Below are positions 1 through 61,923 of a DNA stretch of 64,000 bases, piece after piece. Position 1 is the stretch's first letter, and each line of letters opens with the position of its first letter. The stretch spans positions 1 to 64,000 of the forward strand of contig JAAUZC010000020.1 of the NCBI GenBank assembly GCA_014804795.1, written 5' to 3'. The stretch comes from Lachnospiraceae bacterium. Lineage in GTDB: Bacteria; Bacillota; Clostridia; Lachnospirales; Lachnospiraceae. The notes beneath the pieces are model-generated. The model saw nothing but the letters and a program-made list of their open reading frames with translations, was not told the origin of the DNA and did no database searches. Position numbers and translations under genes: made by a program.

Positions 1-128
1 GCAGTGCCGCTCGATTCCGCTTTGCTTCATCTCGCTCACGGGCTTCGCCCTATCACTTCGCAATCTGACAAAATTGACTGCAAGCAGTCATTTTGCCATC
101 TTACTTCGTGGCACTGCTCATTGCCAAC
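1..128 (-). ncRNA. Structured transcribed repeat element, copy A (continues past left edge)
   Basis: Read on the minus strand, this stretch starts just downstream of a sigma-A promoter (135-163) and folds strongly. A long hairpin (66-98) has arms TGGCAAAAT and ATTTTGTCA around GACTGC/GCAGTC. An enclosing GCAAT/ATTGC helix, a GGGCGAAGCCC hairpin and an outer closing helix GCAGTGCC/GGCACTGC (110-117 with 1-8) follow. The same architecture recurs at 44756-45046 with small changes. One difference turns an A-U pair into G-U on the minus strand only, so RNA is the likely functional form. No coding ORF is credible here; the 103-aa plus-strand ORF is its shadow. Whether it is a leader or an independent RNA cannot be told because the window ends. 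Bases 164-304 show nothing else. Confidence 0.5.
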
Positions 129-134
129 GTGTAT

Positions 135-163
135 ATTATACCACATTCTCCCGTTTCTGACAA
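135..163 (-). promoter_or_regulatory. Sigma-A promoter of repeat element A
   Basis: On the minus strand there is a -35 TTGTCA (158-163), a 17-bp spacer and a perfect -10 TATAAT (135-140). Transcription would start around position 128, at the edge of structured element A. The second copy of the element has a promoter at the same relative place. Confidence 0.65.
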
Positions 164-387: not shown

Positions 388-2157
388 TTAACAGTAATTC
401 GTCACCACAAACTCAATTTCTCTCCGTCCCCGGTACTCATTCAGATTCGGATAGTATGTAATTGTAAGCGGCAGTGATACGCCGCCTCCCGAAAACAGCC
501 TTCCCGCATCCGCGCCGTACTTTTCCAAGAGAAATTTCTCCATTCCTTCCACATCTCCGAAATAAACCAGTGTATGCGCAATATTTTCCTGATCCAGCGC
601 ATCAAATTTGACCACATTCCTGTTCTTTCCGAAAATCCGTCCCGAGCGAAGCAGTACGTTTTTCTGGGCAAAAACCGGTTTCGGATTCCCTGTCCCGAAT
701 GGAGCAAGCAGTTCCAGCTCCTGAATAAATCCCTCTGAAACATAGGACAACGGCAGAGCAATATCGATATGTACTTTCGGCGTAAAATCATCCTCTGTCA
801 GAGAACAGTTCTCGTTCAGCCTTTGCCGCAGCTTTGCCACATTTTCTTTGACAAGAGAGAGACCGGCCGCCATCTTATGTCCGCCGAATTTTTCAAACAG
901 ATCTTTGCAGGCGGAAAGATGTGCAAACATATCATACCCTTCTATGGAACGCCCGGAACCTTTTACTCCCTCCTCCGCATCCGTCAGAACAATTGTCGGC
1001 CTATGATATTTTTCCCTGATGCGTCCTGCTATGATTCCCGCAAGGCTTTCATGACAGTCCGGCAGGTATAAAATCAAAACTTTATCCCTTTTGTCGGAAC
1101 TGAAACTGTCCCGCTCTTTTCTCTCAAGCAGCTTCACCGCCTGCCGCACGCCGGCCTCGGTCATCTCTTTCCGGCTGTCATTTAAATTCTTTAATTCCGC
1201 CGCCATTGGCACGGCCTTTTTATAGTCTTCCTCCAGCCAGAGTTTCAAAGAAAGCGCTGCACTCTCCAGCCTCCCGGAAGCGTTGACGCAAGGTCCTAAC
1301 ACAAAACCGATATGATAAGCTTCTATCTTCCGCATATCCAGTTTATTTACTTCTATCAGCGCCCGCAGCCCCGGATGGGAAGTATGGCTCATCCGCTTCA
1401 GTCCCTCTTTGACAATAATGCGGTTTTCATCTTTCAGTTCCATTACATCGCCTATCGTCGCAAAAGCCGCAGGCTCCAGCAATGTGTTAAGAAGCTCTCT
1501 ATCTACCCCTAATGCCCATGCCAGTTTCCAGGCAACCACAGCGCCGCAGATACCGGAAAACGGATAAGTCTCTCCCGGCTGTTTCGGATCCACCACCGCC
1601 TCCGCAGGCGGCATAGAATATACCCGCTCCCCGCCCGGATTTTCTTCCGTAAAAGGCACCTCATGGTGATCGGTCACTATCACCTGCATACCAAGCCGAT
1701 GTGCTAACTCAATCTGATCCGCCGCTGCGATCCCATTGTCACAGGTCACGATCAACTCTACTTTCTCTGCAGCAGCCTGCTCGATCAGATGGTCATTCAA
1801 TCCATAACCGTCCTTTATCCGATGCGGAATCGCCATATCCACATCCGCTCCCAGAGACTGAAAAGAACGCACCAGAATATAGGTGGCGCAGACGCCGTCT
1901 ATATCATAATCCCCGATCACGCGTATTTTTCTCTTTGCTTCGATTGCACTTTTTATGACAGATACGGCCTGATCCATACCCTTCAACAGTTCCGGCGCAT
2001 ACAGATCTTGTATACTTCCATACAAATATTTTCTGATTTCTTCTTCTCCGCAGACATCCCTGTTGCGTATCAGCCTCGCAAGCACCGGCGAAATATCAAA
2101 TTTCTTCGCTATCGCATCAAAGTCCGCTTTCTTCGCAGCCACAAACCAATTTGCCAT
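388..2157 (-). CDS. recJ: Single-stranded-DNA-specific exonuclease RecJ
   Basis: RecJ degrades single-stranded DNA 5' to 3' in recombination and repair, in the cytoplasm. The protein shows the DHH phosphoesterase motifs: GDYDIDG near residue 82, TDHH near 162, NASGRL in the middle, and the DHHA1 region with GSGRS and a GGH motif in the C-terminal half. A C-terminal OB-like region follows. The ORF track extends to 2322. I prefer the ATG at 2157 (589 aa, MANWF) because it has a purine-rich ribosome binding site and the extra 55 residues are translated hairpin DNA (2184-2208 and 2270-2380). The gene lies downstream of secDF on the same strand, separated by two hairpins, and ends in a strong terminator. 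Confidence 0.93.
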   Translation of the reverse strand: MANWFVAAKKADFDAIAKKFDISPVLARLIRNRDVCGEEEIRKYLYGSIQDLYAPELLKGMDQAVSVIKSAIEAKRKIRVIGDYDIDGVCATYILVRSFQSLGADVDMAIPHRIKDGYGLNDHLIEQAAAEKVELIVTCDNGIAAADQIELAHRLGMQVIVTDHHEVPFTEENPGGERVYSMPPAEAVVDPKQPGETYPFSGICGAVVAWKLAWALGVDRELLNTLLEPAAFATIGDVMELKDENRIIVKEGLKRMSHTSHPGLRALIEVNKLDMRKIEAYHIGFVLGPCVNASGRLESAALSLKLWLEEDYKKAVPMAAELKNLNDSRKEMTEAGVRQAVKLLERKERDSFSSDKRDKVLILYLPDCHESLAGIIAGRIREKYHRPTIVLTDAEEGVKGSGRSIEGYDMFAHLSACKDLFEKFGGHKMAAGLSLVKENVAKLRQRLNENCSLTEDDFTPKVHIDIALPLSYVSEGFIQELELLAPFGTGNPKPVFAQKNVLLRSGRIFGKNRNVVKFDALDQENIAHTLVYFGDVEGMEKFLLEKYGADAGRLFSGGGVSLPLTITYYPNLNEYRGRREIEFVVTNYC

Positions 2158-2183
2158 CTTATCCCTGCTCTCTCTACAAAACA

Positions 2184-2208
2184 GGGCAGGGCTTACTCCG
2201 CCCTGCCC
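2184..2208 (-). terminator. GC-rich hairpin just upstream of recJ
   Basis: GGGCAGGGC and GCCCTGCCC form a perfect 9-bp stem with a 7-base loop. On the minus strand it is followed by TGTTTTG, so it may terminate or attenuate secDF transcription about 25 bases before the recJ start codon. The U tract is interrupted, so strength is uncertain. Confidence 0.5.
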
Positions 2209-2269
2209 GTCATTTTTCTCATATTTTCTCTGCAAAATAACATAAACTGGAGTCTGCCAGCCTGGAAGA

Positions 2270-2380
2270 AAATATCCCTGAAGCAGCCCTGCTAAACGCC
2301 GGCACTTAGCGAGGTATTTCACGAGCTTAGTGTCCGCTGCGTTTAGCTCGGAGCGAGAGCGCGCTGCAGAAGGGATATTT
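2270..2380. repeat. Long imperfect palindromic element between secDF and recJ
   Basis: The outer arms AAATATCCCT (2270-2279) and AGGGATATTT (2371-2380) are exact inverted repeats. Inside, CTAAACGC (2292-2299) and GCGTTTAG (2339-2346) flank a further CACTTAGC / GCTTAGTG pair. The whole 111-bp unit therefore folds into a long cruciform-like stem. It has no coding character. The high GC and arm structure resemble a dispersed repeat, but no second copy occurs in this window. Confidence 0.55.
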
Positions 2381-13752: not shown

Positions 13753-16710
13753 TTATGCATTTGTTAACAGTTCCTTTTTATCTAACACATCTTTTATTGT
13801 TTTTTCAAGCACTTCCAACATGATCGGTTTCGCCACATGGGCATCCATGCCCGCCTCCAATGCATCTGCCACATCTTCCACAAATGCATTCGCTGTCATG
13901 GCAATAATGGGAATGGTCTCCGCACAGGGATGATGCCCTGTTCGTATCACTCTTGTGGCCTGATAACCATCCATTACAGGCATCTTCACATCCATAAGGA
14001 TAAAATCATACGCCTCTATTTCGGAAGCTTCAAACAGGTCCACGGCCTCCTGCCCGTTTTCCGCCACATCATAGGTTGCTCCGCAGGATGTAAGTATTTT
14101 CTGCAGAACGAACCTGTTGACCTTATTATCCTCCACCATCAGGATATGCTTATCTTTCATGATGCTGTCCCTTGCCTTAGACAGTCCAGCTCCTTCAGAA
14201 GAATTTTTGTATGTCACCCGCTTAATAGCTTCCTTAAATGTAGACAGGAAAAACGGTTTTGACATAAAGTGGTCTATCCCCACCTCCTGAGCCTCTTCTT
14301 CAATATCAGTCCAGTCATAAGCGGTGATGAGCAAAATCGGAATCTTCTGTTTATAATCTCTCCGAATCAGTCCTGCCACCTCCAAGCCGTTTGCTTTCGG
14401 CATCTGCCAATCCAGTAAGATCAGATCATAGGGTTCTCCTCTTTCCTTTGCCTCACACAGCGCGCTGACCACCATCTCTCCGTCTGTAACATAATCTACG
14501 GTGACTCCCCTCTCGGACATGACCTGAACTACATTCTCACACACATCCCTGTCATCATCCACTACGATGATACGCCTGATGCCATGTTCTTCCCAAAAAC
14601 CCGAATCTTCTTCCTTTTCCTGTATCCGCAGATTCAGTTCCACTGTAAACACAGACCCCTCCCCCAGTCTGCTCTCTATCGACAGTCTGCCGCCCATGAT
14701 ATCCACCAGATTTTTGGTGATAGCCATGCCAAGTCCCGTGCCCTGAACCTCATTTACCATCGAATTCTGTTCCCGGGTAAAAGGATCAAAAATAACTTTC
14801 TGATACTCTTCGGACATCCCCGGTCCGTTATCCTTTATTTGAAAAAGAATATGGCTGAAACCCTTTGAAATCTGCGGCAGTTCTCTCGCCGTAAATTCAA
14901 TCCTGCCGCCTTTTGGCGTATACTTCACCGCATTTGACAAAATATTGATAAAAATCTGATTGATACGCGTCTTATCTCCTATCAGATGCTCATATCTGAA
15001 ACAGGACGTATTGATAATCAGAGTCTGCTCTTTTGCCTTCACCTGAGGACGGATAATACTGTTGATCCTCTCGATAAGCTCCGCGAGATTCACTTCTCCG
15101 ATGTTCAGCATCATTTTACCGCTCTCAATTTTGTTCATATCCAGAACATCATTGATCAATCCCAGCAAATACTGGCTCGAAGCATCTATCCTCTTCGTAT
15201 ACTCCAATACGCTCTCGGGATTGTCCGCTTCCTGCTGCAGCAATGTAACAAGACCTATGATCGCATTCATCGGAGTCCTGATATCATGGCTCACACTGCT
15301 CAAAAATGTGCTTTTCGCCTTATTTGCTTCCTTTGCCGAATCTAACGCTGTCTTCAGGCTATCCTGTATTTTTCTGTTTTCTGTTCTGTCAGATATATAG
15401 AAAACATATTTCTTCTCGTCCTGTATGTACGTGCAGTAAACAGTCTCCTGAAACCATTTACGCTCCCCTGTCTTAGGATTGACCCGCTCCACCTCTATCG
15501 GCGGCAGCGACTCATCTTCCTTCATCCCATCCAGCATATCCTCTGTGAAAGCCAATGCCTTTAAATCACCCAGGGGTTCCCCCGGCGAAATGGAAATGCC
15601 CCACAGACGTTCAAAATTCGGACTGACATACTCTACGATCTTTTCGTTCTCCTCCAGCATGATATAGGCATCATCCGTATTATTCGCAAGATAGTTTGCC
15701 AGAATTCTGAACTGCTGCTCTTTGTATTCTTTTTCCAGTTCCTTCTCTAAGAGATCTCTGTGAGCCCCCCAGGCAAATAAAACAAATGTGAACAAAAACG
15801 CTATCAGCACGACTGCAACCGCAATACCTGTCTGGGAACCGCTTACGATCCGGTTCGCCTCATCCATGACCGCCGTTCTGGGTACAATAGATATCAGAAA
15901 CCATCCGTCCACATTATCCAACGGAATATAAGTATATATGTATGCGTTCTCTTCTTCATGGAAAACTATCGTTCCGGTCTTATCCTCATTCAGCGCCACT
16001 TTCAACTCGGCAATCTGTTCCTCGCAGTCCTCATCGCCTTCATACATATCAAAAATATTTTGTCCGATGGGATCCCTTTCCGTTTGAAACGGACGCACCA
16101 GAACATCACCGTCAGCGTTCACAACATATGCGAACCCCTGATCATTATAAAAAGAAAGGGTGAATTCTTCCGAAATCCGGTCCGACTCATATCCTTTCTG
16201 AATCATCCCTTTCGCGCCGTCCTTAAAAGTAAAGCGCTCATAATACCCAAACATCTGCGTCTCCGTATATATGCTGATATACGACTCCCTGACGCCTGTG
16301 TCCGAATAACCGAGCAGGTTATTCCAGCCTTTCTCGCTTAACTGTGTGACTTCCTTTGACTTACTGTTGTAATATTCTCCCGTATCCAGATTTATTACGC
16401 TGTAAATCGCACCTACATCAAAAAAAACCGCCAGCTTATCCTGGATCCTTTCCACATCCTCAGAATCCAGGCTGGAAAAATCCCCCGCATAGCTGTGGAT
16501 CCGCTCCAGATCCCTTCTGATAAAACTGTCAAATGCCTGTTGATGCTGCTTTGTCACGATTTGGACATTCGCGATCGTCTGATCCATCAGGCAGTCTCTT
16601 ATATATCGTATATAGTAGAAAGATGCCACTATTACAAATACTATGCTTGCCACACCCACAAAATACATCCAATACTTTTGAAGGTATCCCCTCTTTCTTT
16701 TCTCACCCAT
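13753..16710 (-). CDS. Hybrid sensor histidine kinase with two receiver domains (kinase 1)
   Basis: This 985-aa membrane protein has, in order, a helix (13-35), an extracellular sensor region (about 40-285, likely dCache type), a second helix (293-315), a PAS-like domain (335-450) and a HisKA domain with His475 in SSVSHDIRTP. Next come an ATPase with N, G1 and G2 boxes (NILSNAVKYTP, DNGPGM, GTGLGMAI), then receiver 1 (713-830, Asp767 in LLDWQMPKANG) and receiver 2 (855-975, Asp907 in LMDVKMPVMDG). It should sense an external signal and start a phosphorelay. Start: ATG after AAAGGTGAACAGCGG. The nearby kinase 17181-20132 is a full-length paralogue. The operon continues into HPt and two HD-GYP-type regulators. 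Confidence 0.93.
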   Translation of the reverse strand: MGEKRKRGYLQKYWMYFVGVASIVFVIVASFYYIRYIRDCLMDQTIANVQIVTKQHQQAFDSFIRRDLERIHSYAGDFSSLDSEDVERIQDKLAVFFDVGAIYSVINLDTGEYYNSKSKEVTQLSEKGWNNLLGYSDTGVRESYISIYTETQMFGYYERFTFKDGAKGMIQKGYESDRISEEFTLSFYNDQGFAYVVNADGDVLVRPFQTERDPIGQNIFDMYEGDEDCEEQIAELKVALNEDKTGTIVFHEEENAYIYTYIPLDNVDGWFLISIVPRTAVMDEANRIVSGSQTGIAVAVVLIAFLFTFVLFAWGAHRDLLEKELEKEYKEQQFRILANYLANNTDDAYIMLEENEKIVEYVSPNFERLWGISISPGEPLGDLKALAFTEDMLDGMKEDESLPPIEVERVNPKTGERKWFQETVYCTYIQDEKKYVFYISDRTENRKIQDSLKTALDSAKEANKAKSTFLSSVSHDIRTPMNAIIGLVTLLQQEADNPESVLEYTKRIDASSQYLLGLINDVLDMNKIESGKMMLNIGEVNLAELIERINSIIRPQVKAKEQTLIINTSCFRYEHLIGDKTRINQIFINILSNAVKYTPKGGRIEFTARELPQISKGFSHILFQIKDNGPGMSEEYQKVIFDPFTREQNSMVNEVQGTGLGMAITKNLVDIMGGRLSIESRLGEGSVFTVELNLRIQEKEEDSGFWEEHGIRRIIVVDDDRDVCENVVQVMSERGVTVDYVTDGEMVVSALCEAKERGEPYDLILLDWQMPKANGLEVAGLIRRDYKQKIPILLITAYDWTDIEEEAQEVGIDHFMSKPFFLSTFKEAIKRVTYKNSSEGAGLSKARDSIMKDKHILMVEDNKVNRFVLQKILTSCGATYDVAENGQEAVDLFEASEIEAYDFILMDVKMPVMDGYQATRVIRTGHHPCAETIPIIAMTANAFVEDVADALEAGMDAHVAKPIMLEVLEKTIKDVLDKKELLTNA

Positions 16711-17180: not shown

Positions 17181-20132
17181 ATGATTGAAAAAATCAAGAA
17201 ATACCAACGTTTGTTGTTTGTTGTTTTGATTGTTATTTGTATAGGATGCGCTTCCGCTATTGGAATCAGCTATGTCAAGGCGCTGCAGAACAAACTGCAG
17301 AATCAGGCCATTCAAAATGTCATGACAGTGACCCTGCAGCAACAGCAGGCATTCGACAATTTTATCTCCCAGGACACGGAACGGGTACACAGCTTCGCAA
17401 CTTATTTTGCCAACTCCGGCAAAAACCCGGAGGAAATACAGGAACAGCTGACAATATTCAACGACATAGACGCTACTTATGCCGTAATCTGCCTTGATGA
17501 GGGATTGTTCTGCTGCAATGCCTTCGAAGATATTCTTCCGATAGATGAAGAAAATCTGGAAACCTATCTCGGTCTCACCGGCACCGGTATCCGTGACAGC
17601 TATATCGGACCTTATACCGGCATCCCAAGGTTCTGTTATTATGAGACCTTCACCTTTTCCGACGGTCATAAGGGCCTGATTCAAAAAAGCTACGACCGCA
17701 GCAGAATTTCCGAAACTTTTTCACTCTCTTTCTACAATAACCAGGGCTTTTCCTATGTAATAAACCAAAACGGGGATATTCTGCTGCGAGCCGCCGATAT
17801 GCTTGACAATCATTTTTATGAGAATATTCTTGACCTACTGACCGATACCCAGGCTGACCCGGAGGATATTGAGCAGTTCAGGCAGGCATTGAACACCCGG
17901 GCAACGGGCAGCATAATATTCACAGGGAAGCTGAAGGATTATGTCTACAGTTATGTCCCCATGGAAAATGCGGAAAACTGGTATCTGGTCTCTATCGTGC
18001 CAATGGACGCGATCACAGACGAAGCAAACCACCTGCTGTTGGATTCTCAAAAAACAGTGGGGCTCCTGATCCTTATTCTGCTCATTTGTGTCCTGCTCAT
18101 TCTGTCGATGTTTCTCACCGGTAAATATATCAAGGCCAAGGAGCAGGATGCTGATTATCAGACACAGCTGTTTGATATCTTCATTAGTTATCTTTCGCGC
18201 AATACAAACGATATTTATATGATGTTGGATCATAAAACGGAAACCCTCGAGTATGTCAGCCCCAACGTAAAGCAGGTGCTTGGCGTGGATCCGGAAGACG
18301 TGATCGACGTTCTTAAAGCTTCCGATATGACTGCAGATTCTGAGTCTGTTGAGGCTTACTATAAACAGCTTCAGTCCATGATCCCCGGTGAAACAGTGCT
18401 TTCCCGGACTACGGAGCGAATCAATCCCCAGACCGGAGAACACCTATATTTTCAGGAAAATGCCTACTGCGCAGTCGTTCATGGCCGTATCAAACGCATG
18501 GCCTATATCTCTGACCGAACGAAAGAGCGGCAGGTTCAGGCAAATCTGACTGAGGCGCTGCAGATGGCTAAAATCGCCAGCGAGGCTAAAAGCACTTTTC
18601 TGAGCAGCATCAGCCACGACATCCGCACTCCCATGAACGCTATCATCGGTTTCCTGACCCTGATGCGGGATGAGGTGCATAATCCTGAAACGGTGATGGA
18701 ATATAATAAACGCATTGATGCTGCCAGCCAGCATCTTTTGGGCCTCATCAACGATGTGCTGGATCTGAACAAGATTGAGAGCGGCAGCGCTACGCTGAAC
18801 ATTGTCGAGTTCACTCTGGCCGAGATCATTGACGGACTTAACACCATTATCCGTCCTCAAACCAACGCCAAAAACCAGACTTTCGATATTTCCGTCTCCC
18901 AATTGACTTACGAACATCTGTCGGGCGACAAGCTGCGGATCAATCAGATTCTGATCAATCTTCTGTCCAACGCCGTGAAGTATACACCGGAAAACGGAAC
19001 TATTGAACTGCAGATAGAAGAACTGCCTCAGACAATAGAAGACTATAGCCGTATCCGTTTTACCGTCAGCGACAACGGCCTGGGAATGAGCGAGGATTAT
19101 CTGAAAGTGATCTTCGACCCGTTCACCCGGGAAGAGACTAAAAACACCCGGCAAATACAGGGTACCGGCCTGGGGATGCCCATCACTAAAAGCCTGGTGG
19201 AGTTGATGGGCGGCAGCATTCACGTGGAAAGCGAACCGGGCAAAGGAAGCACCTTTACCGTGGAGTTGACGCTGCACATTCAGGAACAGAACGAAGAACC
19301 CGCGTTCTGGAAAGATCACAATATAACCAAAATCCTCGTAATTGATGACGAGGAAGAGATATGCCTCAATATCATAAAGGCGATGTCCCAGACAGGCGTA
19401 GCCACAGACTATTCCACAAATGGTGCGAAGGCAACCCAAATGCTGCTTGCGGCCAGAAAGGAAGGTTCCCCTTACAGTCTGGTTCTTCTGGACTGGAAAA
19501 TGCCGAATCTCAGTGGACTGGAGACCGCCCGCCTCATCCGGGAAAACTATCCGGACAAAATACTTATCTTCCTCCTTACCGCTTACGACTGGAGTGATAT
19601 CGAGCAGGAAGCTTCTAAAAGCGGCGTAAACCACTTTATGCCCAAACCTTTTTTCGTGAGTACGCTCAAGGAGGCCGTCCATCAGATAACCGCGGGTGAT
19701 GAAAAAAAAGCTGATGACACTCTGTCCAATGTAGTTCGAGAAAAACATATTCTTGTCGTGGATGACATGAAAGCCAACCAGTTCATCTTGTCCAAGATCC
19801 TGGGCACTCTGGGTGCCCGCTGCGACATTGCAGGCAACGGACAGGAAGCCGTAGAGATGTTCGAAGCTGCTGTTTCCGATACATATGACCTGATTCTGAT
19901 GGATGTGCAGATGCCTGTAGTAGACGGCTACACTGCTACCGGAATGATTCGAGGCAGCAGCCACCCTTTGGCGAAAACAATACCGATCATTGCCATGACC
20001 GCCAACGCCTTTGTGGAGGATATACAGAACGCTCTGGATGCCGGTATGGACGCTCATGTGGCCAAACCGGTTCAACGAAATAAACTTCTCGCTACCATTC
20101 AAGAGGTGATGAAGAAATATGAGAATCCTTAA
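17181..20132 (+). CDS. Hybrid sensor histidine kinase with two receiver domains (kinase 2)
   Basis: This 983-aa paralogue of kinase 1 has the same layout. A helix (10-30), an extracellular sensor (about 40-285) and a second helix (293-313) come first. A PAS-like domain, HisKA with His479 (SSISHDIRTP), an ATPase (NLLSNAVKYTP, DNGLGM, GTGLGMPI), receiver 1 (Asp771, LLDWKMPNLSG) and receiver 2 (Asp908, LMDVQMPVVDG) follow. The kinase and receiver modules are near-identical in motif to kinase 1, but the sensor region is more divergent, which suggests duplication followed by a change of ligand. Start: ATG with AAGGTGG upstream. It has no HPt of its own nearby, so it may share the one at 13369. A strong terminator follows. 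Confidence 0.93.
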   Translation: MIEKIKKYQRLLFVVLIVICIGCASAIGISYVKALQNKLQNQAIQNVMTVTLQQQQAFDNFISQDTERVHSFATYFANSGKNPEEIQEQLTIFNDIDATYAVICLDEGLFCCNAFEDILPIDEENLETYLGLTGTGIRDSYIGPYTGIPRFCYYETFTFSDGHKGLIQKSYDRSRISETFSLSFYNNQGFSYVINQNGDILLRAADMLDNHFYENILDLLTDTQADPEDIEQFRQALNTRATGSIIFTGKLKDYVYSYVPMENAENWYLVSIVPMDAITDEANHLLLDSQKTVGLLILILLICVLLILSMFLTGKYIKAKEQDADYQTQLFDIFISYLSRNTNDIYMMLDHKTETLEYVSPNVKQVLGVDPEDVIDVLKASDMTADSESVEAYYKQLQSMIPGETVLSRTTERINPQTGEHLYFQENAYCAVVHGRIKRMAYISDRTKERQVQANLTEALQMAKIASEAKSTFLSSISHDIRTPMNAIIGFLTLMRDEVHNPETVMEYNKRIDAASQHLLGLINDVLDLNKIESGSATLNIVEFTLAEIIDGLNTIIRPQTNAKNQTFDISVSQLTYEHLSGDKLRINQILINLLSNAVKYTPENGTIELQIEELPQTIEDYSRIRFTVSDNGLGMSEDYLKVIFDPFTREETKNTRQIQGTGLGMPITKSLVELMGGSIHVESEPGKGSTFTVELTLHIQEQNEEPAFWKDHNITKILVIDDEEEICLNIIKAMSQTGVATDYSTNGAKATQMLLAARKEGSPYSLVLLDWKMPNLSGLETARLIRENYPDKILIFLLTAYDWSDIEQEASKSGVNHFMPKPFFVSTLKEAVHQITAGDEKKADDTLSNVVREKHILVVDDMKANQFILSKILGTLGARCDIAGNGQEAVEMFEAAVSDTYDLILMDVQMPVVDGYTATGMIRGSSHPLAKTIPIIAMTANAFVEDIQNALDAGMDAHVAKPVQRNKLLATIQEVMKKYENP

Positions 20133-30695: not shown

Positions 30696-30819
30696 ATGAT
30701 TCCTCCTGTTTTAGGTTATATAGTTCTTCTATGATACACGGATTGCTCCGCATTTCATGCTCCCGCAATCCTAAAACATTCGAAATCCGCCCTGATCGGG
30801 CTTCTTTCTCATGTTTTGC

Positions 30820-30882
30820 GGGTCCCAAGGTCAAAAATCCTTTTGCAAGCAAGCTTGCATCGGATTTTAGACCTTTTGACCC
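30820..30882 (-). repeat. Long hairpin element in the ABC operon leader
   Basis: GGGTC..AAGGTC, AAAATCC and GCAAGC pair in order with GCTTGC, GGATTTT and ACCTT..GACCC to form a 63-base hairpin with a two-base tip and only small internal loops. It lies about 125 bp upstream of the ATPase ATG. The rest of 30696-31027 contains no credible gene; the 81-aa minus ORF there is the translated hairpin region. It may be a dispersed repeat or an attenuating leader. Confidence 0.55.
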
Positions 30883-31027
30883 TGGTATCATAATACCAGA
30901 TACATCTTACAGTATCCTGACAGAACGGAAAAAATATTATGACAATTTTGTCAGAAAAAAACTGCGGCGCAGGTATGCCTGCCGAGCGCAGTTACACAAA
31001 ATGGACTGAAAATAAGAATTCCAAAAT

Positions 31028-44724: not shown

Positions 44725-44755
44725 ATTTTCCTCCCCATATCGCACAACATATGCC

Positions 44756-44998
44756 GCAGTGCGCATTCGGTAAATCTTCGATTTCCCTCTTTCGCGGGCT
44801 TCGCCCTATCACTCTCTGATCAGGCCGCTTTACCCCGCAGTGCACGCTCGCAAAACCTCCGGTTTTACTCGCTCGCGGGCTTCGCCCTATCAGACCCTGA
44901 TTCGGCTGCTTTACCCCGCAGTGCACGCTCGCAAAACCTCTGGTTTTACTCGCTCGCGGGCTTCGCCCTATCACTCTGCAATCTGACAAAATTGACTG
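44756..44998 (-). repeat. 81-bp tandem repeats (three units)
   Basis: GCAGTGC occurs at 44756, 44837 and 44918, exactly 81 bp apart. The units from 44837 and 44918 are nearly identical (CCCCGCAGTGCACGCTCGCA and onward); the unit from 44756 is diverged in its middle part but keeps the CGGGCTTCGCCC hairpin. The rest of 44725-45110 is the gene leader and promoter. Confidence 0.8.
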
Positions 44999-45046
44999 CA
45001 AGCAGTCATTTTGTCATCTTACTCCGTGGCACTGCTCATTGCATAC
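44756..45046 (-). ncRNA. Structured transcribed repeat element, copy B (leader of Na/Pi gene)
   Basis: Transcription from the promoter at 45053-45081 runs through GCAATGA and GCAGTGCC (45028-45035), then a hairpin (44984-45016) whose 15-bp arms TGACAAAAT.GACTGC and GCAGTC.ATTTTGTCA differ only by a bulge. Three tandem 81-bp units follow, each with a GGGCGAAGCCC hairpin; the first two also have AAAACC/GGTTTT, and each ends in GCACTGC, complementary to the 5' GCAGTGC. The same element, with one unit, is at 1-128. Combined with the Na/Pi gene 32 bp further on, it forms a leader of about 325 bases. The 116-aa ORF across it is not believable as a protein. Confidence 0.55.
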
Positions 45047-45052
45047 GCGTAC

Positions 45053-45081
45053 ATTATAACCTGTTTGTCGACTTCTTTCAA
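45053..45081 (-). promoter_or_regulatory. Sigma-A promoter of repeat element B / Na/Pi gene
   Basis: TTGAAA (45076-45081), 17 bp and TATAAT (45053-45058) on the minus strand. The spacing to the start of the folded element is the same as for copy A, although the spacers differ in sequence. Confidence 0.7.
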
Positions 45082-61787: not shown

Positions 61788-61923
61788 TCTTTTATGGCTA
61801 CTCCGCTTCGCTCCGAGCCAGTATAATATCTGACGATATTATATCATGTCTGCAAACAGACATGATATCTTTTATGGCTACTCCGCTTCGCTCCGAGCCA
61901 GTATAATATCTGACGATATTATA
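61788..61923. repeat. Direct repeat, 56-bp units at 80-bp period
   Basis: Two identical 56-bp copies (61788-61843 and 61868-61923) carry CCGCTTCGCTCCGAGCC and a perfect hairpin TATAATATC/GATATTATA. Between them lies another perfect hairpin, ATATCATGTCTG/CAGACATGATAT (61841-61868). It lies in the promoter region of the DUF624 gene. Confidence 0.85.

Follow-up and report, generated by a model that had tools for sequence, protein, structure and literature searches.

A multi-copy structured RNA element at the starts of genes in Lachnospiraceae, probably a mobile 5' leader

The window, a stretch of 64,000 nucleotides from a Lachnospiraceae bacterium (contig C20 of genome G000), carries at its left edge a promoter and a folded element, both read on the minus strand and preceded by a recJ-like gene. 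The features referred to below are the following.

1–8, minus strand: 3' strand of the outer helix P1, GGCACTGC, coinciding with the contig end
1–134, minus strand: candidate mobile structured leader element, its 3' end lost at the contig edge
about 9–37, minus strand: hairpin P4, the third hairpin after P2 and P3
40–50, minus strand: hairpin P3, GGGCGAAGCCC, part of the common element structure
54–109, minus strand: long hairpin P2 with a CUUG tetraloop at 81–84, free in sequence and conserved in pairing
110–117, minus strand: 5' strand of P1, GCAGTGCC, with the invariant GCAATGA before it
135–140, minus strand: −10 TATAAT with TG in front, insertion place of the element and probable target duplication
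158–163, minus strand: −35 TTGTCA of the promoter native to the murE operon; element-free congeners keep it, and by this comparison it is host and not element sequence
388–2322, minus strand: recJ-like gene upstream of the element, with a likely terminator at 324–341
30732–30890, minus strand: bona fide Clostridiales-1 RNA (RF01699, 134.8 bits), possibly distant kin of the element
44754–45058, minus strand: copy B, comprising a full element together with partial tandem units of 81 nt and forming the leader of a Na/Pi-cotransporter-like gene (named from its first residues)

On the minus strand the window copy runs TTGTCA, 17 bp, TATAAT, ACACGTTGGCAATGA, GCAGTGCC, long hairpin, GGGCGAAGCCC, third hairpin and GGCACTGC, which ends at base 1; GGCAATGA lies between the −10 and GCAGTGCC. 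This confirmed the order of promoter, GCAATGA, long hairpin and closing sequence at position 1 that the initial annotation had read from the letters. With its 17-bp spacer the promoter matches the consensus at 11 of 12 positions. The outer stem of the approximately 125-nt element is GCAGUGC/GCACUGC, its end pair is GCAATGAGCAGTGC/GCACTGC, and identity of the window copy with other young copies reaches about position 143. Contigs C20, C26, C21, and C51 all break within identical element copies, and the window edge is thus an assembly break in a repeat. A look at the leftward neighbour, suggested with the initial annotation, was taken via synteny: the leader sequence on the recJ side continues, in five congeners, into murE-priA-def-fmt, which in the present genome sits on contig C51. 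This synteny shows the left neighbour missing from the window to be the murE operon.

The element is an RNA of the minus strand with four helices, P1–P4. Folded as minus-strand RNA, the window copy reaches −48.1 kcal/mol (z −3.8, none of 200 shuffles equally good), and the plus-strand fold is weaker (−36.3 kcal/mol, z −2.3). Across 73 element copies, 92.4% of cells were paired in the covariation analysis, with 552 double-change cells versus 153 in shuffled and at most 176 in slid alignments and a covariation score of 0.579 versus 0.160 and at most 0.139, respectively. All 17 predicted P2 pairs covary, six pairs of the terminal P1 pairing GCAGTGC/GCACTGC are kept in every copy, and the P2 tip is G[CUUG]C in 52 of 72 copies. 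The family is thus one in which shape is conserved and sequence is not; GCAATGA and ATAGGGCGAAGCCCG are invariant beside these free-sequence helices, both having been selected for by the exact-match search pattern. The strand had originally been deduced from a single G-U for A-U swap relative to copy B, which is real (TGGCAAAAT versus TGACAAAAT opposite ATTTTGTCA) and generalises: among 72 diverse copies, not fully independent of one another, P2 wobbles are of the minus-RNA type in 43 cases and of the mirror type in 16 (p = 6e-4). The strand claim therefore holds, and mismatches equal in number on either strand, named beforehand as the outcome that would speak against it, were not what the copies showed. 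A leader peptide starting at the conserved AUG was rejected as a candidate, since open-frame lengths scatter from 4 to more than 600 codons and so reveal no conserved reading frame. Neither in the window nor in the flanks of other copies was a terminator found after the closing stem P1.

The edge sequence had been presented as the second copy of a pair. It is a genuine copy, but of a large, apparently mobile family: BLAST matched the genome at 17 places, a number that includes partial matches and the tandem units of copy B, and a covariance model trained on 35 diverse copies with the promoter left out found 20 at E ≤ 0.001, about 14 copies being clear. Some of these are 98–100% identical despite unrelated flanks. 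The same model recovered copies in nine of nine genomes of the genus and in 80 of 150 Lachnospiraceae genera, where single genomes hold as many as 21. In other families of the Clostridia its matches were only sporadic. A pattern scan of GTDB yielded at least 117 stretches; among the matches listed, the records were overwhelmingly Lachnospiraceae or its genera, some being labelled only "Clostridia" or "bacterium". No element copy was found in the plasmid, phage, and viral collections searched. The tandem 81-nt units of copy B (44754–45058) are partial, combining P3 and P4 with the closing stem; other genera have comparable arrays (L133, L145, L118). A diverged form in another family (G353, L380–L389) has P1 lengthened by GCGAAAAATRAAG, and several of its copies lie right behind the T-tracts of intrinsic terminators.

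Comparison with congeners separates the element from the promoter in front of it. At the corresponding place and in the same register, congeners without the element (L271–L275) carry TTGTCA-17-TGnTAnnAT, reading TGTGGTACTAT, TGTGATATGAT, and TGTGGTAAAAT versus TGTGGTATAAT in the window. By this comparison the −35 and spacer at murE are the host's and the element is placed exactly at the native −10. The promoter-plus-hairpin element of the initial annotation consequently stands as to its two parts and falls as a single unit: −35 and spacer belong to the host murE, and the −10 looks like a target. A promoter in front is nevertheless the rule. A −10 with at most one mismatch lies at a constant position in 57 of 71 pattern-found copies and, mostly at the identical offset, in 32 of 50 model-found copies versus about 10% of control positions, the model having been built without the −10; −35 matches are weakly enriched over the set. 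Empty sites in congeners are clear in one case (murE) and probable in one. At the L003 locus relatives have a single TATAAT, and its counterpart in the alignment is the copy on the downstream side of the element; at L004 the sequences were too diverged for the empty-site alignment to be read.

In several copies the −10 is repeated directly on both sides of the element over 8–14 bp, and −10-type direct repeats abut it in L072, L107, L134, and L144 as well as in the genome's own copies L193 and L196. Exact direct repeats of at least 8 bp flank 11 of 115 copies (shuffled mean 3.8, maximum 8 in 300). Such repeats are thus statistically enriched and clear in about six copies, most copies having none or decayed ones, and as proof of target duplication for all copies the repeats alone were rejected. 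Taken together, direct repeats, empty sites, and the −10 in the model-found set favour insertion at the −10, which seems to be a target sequence duplicated on insertion. This targeting is not universal: copies in G353, G143, G106, and G046 are preceded not by a −10 but by terminators, other motifs or stop codons, and a −10 target common to all lineages was rejected on that ground. A second palindromic repeat family, with units of about 82 nt (TGACATGGTATAATATCGACAGATATTATACCA...TGTCTGCTTGC), has two units in tandem in the stretch that separates the element from murE (L266 on contig C51, about 120–290) and has kin at window positions 61788–61923. TGGTATAATA delimits this family as well, and the −10 may be a target common to it and the element. 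Elsewhere in the window, 15022–15320 and 18583–18881 form a 299-nt inverted repeat pair, 71% complementary and 3.3 kb apart, possibly two paralogous regions.

Orthologous copies in congeners record change after insertion. Compensatory pairs number 10 of 51 between L197 and L295, 5 of 49 between L296 and L297, and 4 of 43 between L284 and L288, with none broken. Because each structure was worked out from the very pair under comparison, intact pairs are favoured and the lack of broken pairs is partly built in; the double changes are still real. As judged from these alignments, the RNA fold is shown to be maintained in place after insertion, with gene conversion between copies as a source that could alternatively produce apparent compensation. 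L188 has its locus, promoter and ends in common with L284 and L288 but wholly different P2 and P4 hairpins, pointing to a probable cassette exchange or gene conversion between copies.

By a simple ORF caller, the nearest downstream gene is co-oriented at 53 of 57 pattern-found and 50 of 64 model-found loci, and usually starts within about 300 nt of the element. These genes include clpX, trkA, ugd, wecE, an LL-diaminopimelate-type aminotransferase gene, pyrF, ispG, and metK, and further xylB, pfp, plsC, pheT, mraY, folE, ppk, and holB; no pathway common to the downstream genes was found. The mRNAs of many unrelated housekeeping genes thus probably begin with a common folded RNA.

Among curated RNA families none matches the window copy above threshold; Rfam searched at E up to 10 gave chance matches only, and RF01699 gave no match even at E 10. 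Several related elements do match RF01699 over its full length, mostly below the gathering threshold of 48 bits (24.7–35.9 bits). One genomic element (C10:50389) exceeds it with 50.8 bits and scores 95.5 with the element covariance model; at this place (L197, L204; C10:50381–50604) the above-threshold element is followed by a partial tandem copy, and the stretch is a possible bridge between the two families. Both have a closing stem, a long hairpin with a GCUUGC tip and two more hairpins, both are multi-copy in Lachnospiraceae (83 of 150 genera for Clostridiales-1, 80 of 150 for the element), and the Clostridiales-1 copies inspected also lie upstream of co-oriented genes. Near-identical Clostridiales-1 copies occur in many Lachnospiraceae (e.g. 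G038). In contrast, the element has reduced hairpins 2 and 3, from which the conserved UGAGCAUGAAG and GCGGGAG... motifs are missing; aligned to the RF01699 model, L013 shows them as deletions, and hairpin 2 of the element is only GGGCGAAGCCC. The ends also differ (GCAGTGC versus TGATRCC). With mostly sub-threshold matches, one above threshold and none for the window copy, the element is a probable distant relative of Clostridiales-1, not a member. Clostridiales-1 has been classed among probable RNAs, probably without a cis-regulatory role and with no function given (Weinberg et al. 2010, PMC2864571). The positions of the copies at gene starts speak for revisiting this label.

Like MITEs, the element is short, non-coding, multi-copy and recently dispersed. 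Terminal inverted repeats are present (GCAGTGC/GCACTGC), yet their place is within the inserted unit, some 15 nt away from the −10. BOX, RUP and Correia-type MITEs are short, non-autonomous, modular and intergenic, sometimes form tandem units and can give stable RNA, all of which the element shares, its tandem units being occasional. It differs from them in sequence and hosts, in its strong orientation with the downstream gene, in its −10 insertion in this clade and in that structure rather than sequence is conserved. TnGBS, ISLre2, and ISKra4 insert 15–17 bp upstream of the −35, are oriented to sigma-A promoters and encode a transposase (PMC3942029). Oriented insertion at sigma-A promoters is common to them and the element. 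Unlike them, the element is located at the −10 and turns into the leader of the transcript. A literature search by sequence motif returned unrelated primers only and no paper on the element; as far as this search reaches, the family is previously undescribed.

In our view the element is probably a mobile unit of about 125 bp, MITE-like and non-autonomous, that acts as the 5'-leader RNA of host genes. This view builds on its observed structure, strand, copy number, dispersal, position, co-orientation, empty site and constraint in place. The element would insert just upstream of genes, in this clade into the −10 of existing promoters, leaving direct repeats of 8–14 bp, and would be mobilised in trans by a putative transposase; neither such a gene nor an autonomous parent element was seen, which counts against this reading. 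The host promoter would then transcribe it as the first approximately 130 nt of the mRNA, in the window that of murE-priA-def-fmt. 5'-proximal stem-loops slow mRNA decay in Firmicutes, and the leader RNA would for this reason most likely serve as a 5'-proximal shield against 5' exonuclease, or else insulate the leader of the gene. Shielding or insulation would make the insertion harmless or slightly beneficial, and it would be kept.

The main rival is a purely selfish MITE, with hairpins that serve mobility only, through recognition by a transposase or as single-stranded DNA, and with no gain to the host; the upstream, co-oriented position would then reflect target choice and the loss of harmful insertions. 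Recent identical copies, direct repeats, tandem arrays, and conserved ends around a free middle all agree with it, and what makes it rather unlikely in our view is that strand-specific wobbles are unexpected for an inert insertion, as are compensatory changes in orthologous inserted copies, though gene conversion could mimic the latter. The 5'-leader position and the invariant GCAATGA and ATAGGGCGAAGCCCG beside free-sequence helices, two motifs that the search pattern had selected for, would also suit a cis-regulator responding to a ligand or protein, either riboswitch-like or the target of a global RNA-binding protein. This seems improbable for an RNA whose downstream genes have no common pathway, in which no terminator or RBS-sequestering alternative was seen, and whose presence at one gene (murE) varies among congeners. 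Least of all do we expect a free-standing small RNA gene with its own promoter: the −10 at a fixed distance and the treatment of the kin Clostridiales-1 as an sRNA, not cis-regulatory, by Rfam and Weinberg et al. (2010, PMC2864571) speak for it, but the closing stem has no terminator behind it, the co-oriented gene usually follows within about 300 nt, and at murE −35 and spacer belong to the host gene.

Going beyond the mobile leader RNA that we favour, it is conceivable, if doubtful, that the element is a promoter-targeted mobile RNA that recognises a melted or sigma-bound −10, duplicates about 8–14 bp and gives mRNAs genome-wide one common 5' structure. It would then form, with Clostridiales-1 as sister lineage, a superfamily of mobile 5'-leader RNAs domesticated for transcript stability in Lachnospiraceae. 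For the biology of these gut bacteria, the element, found in over half of the sampled Lachnospiraceae genera, lies where the transcripts of many housekeeping genes probably start, provides a tangible way into a possible role of the long-unexplained Clostridiales-1 RNAs, and represents a rare case of a mobile element with an RNA fold demonstrably maintained after insertion.
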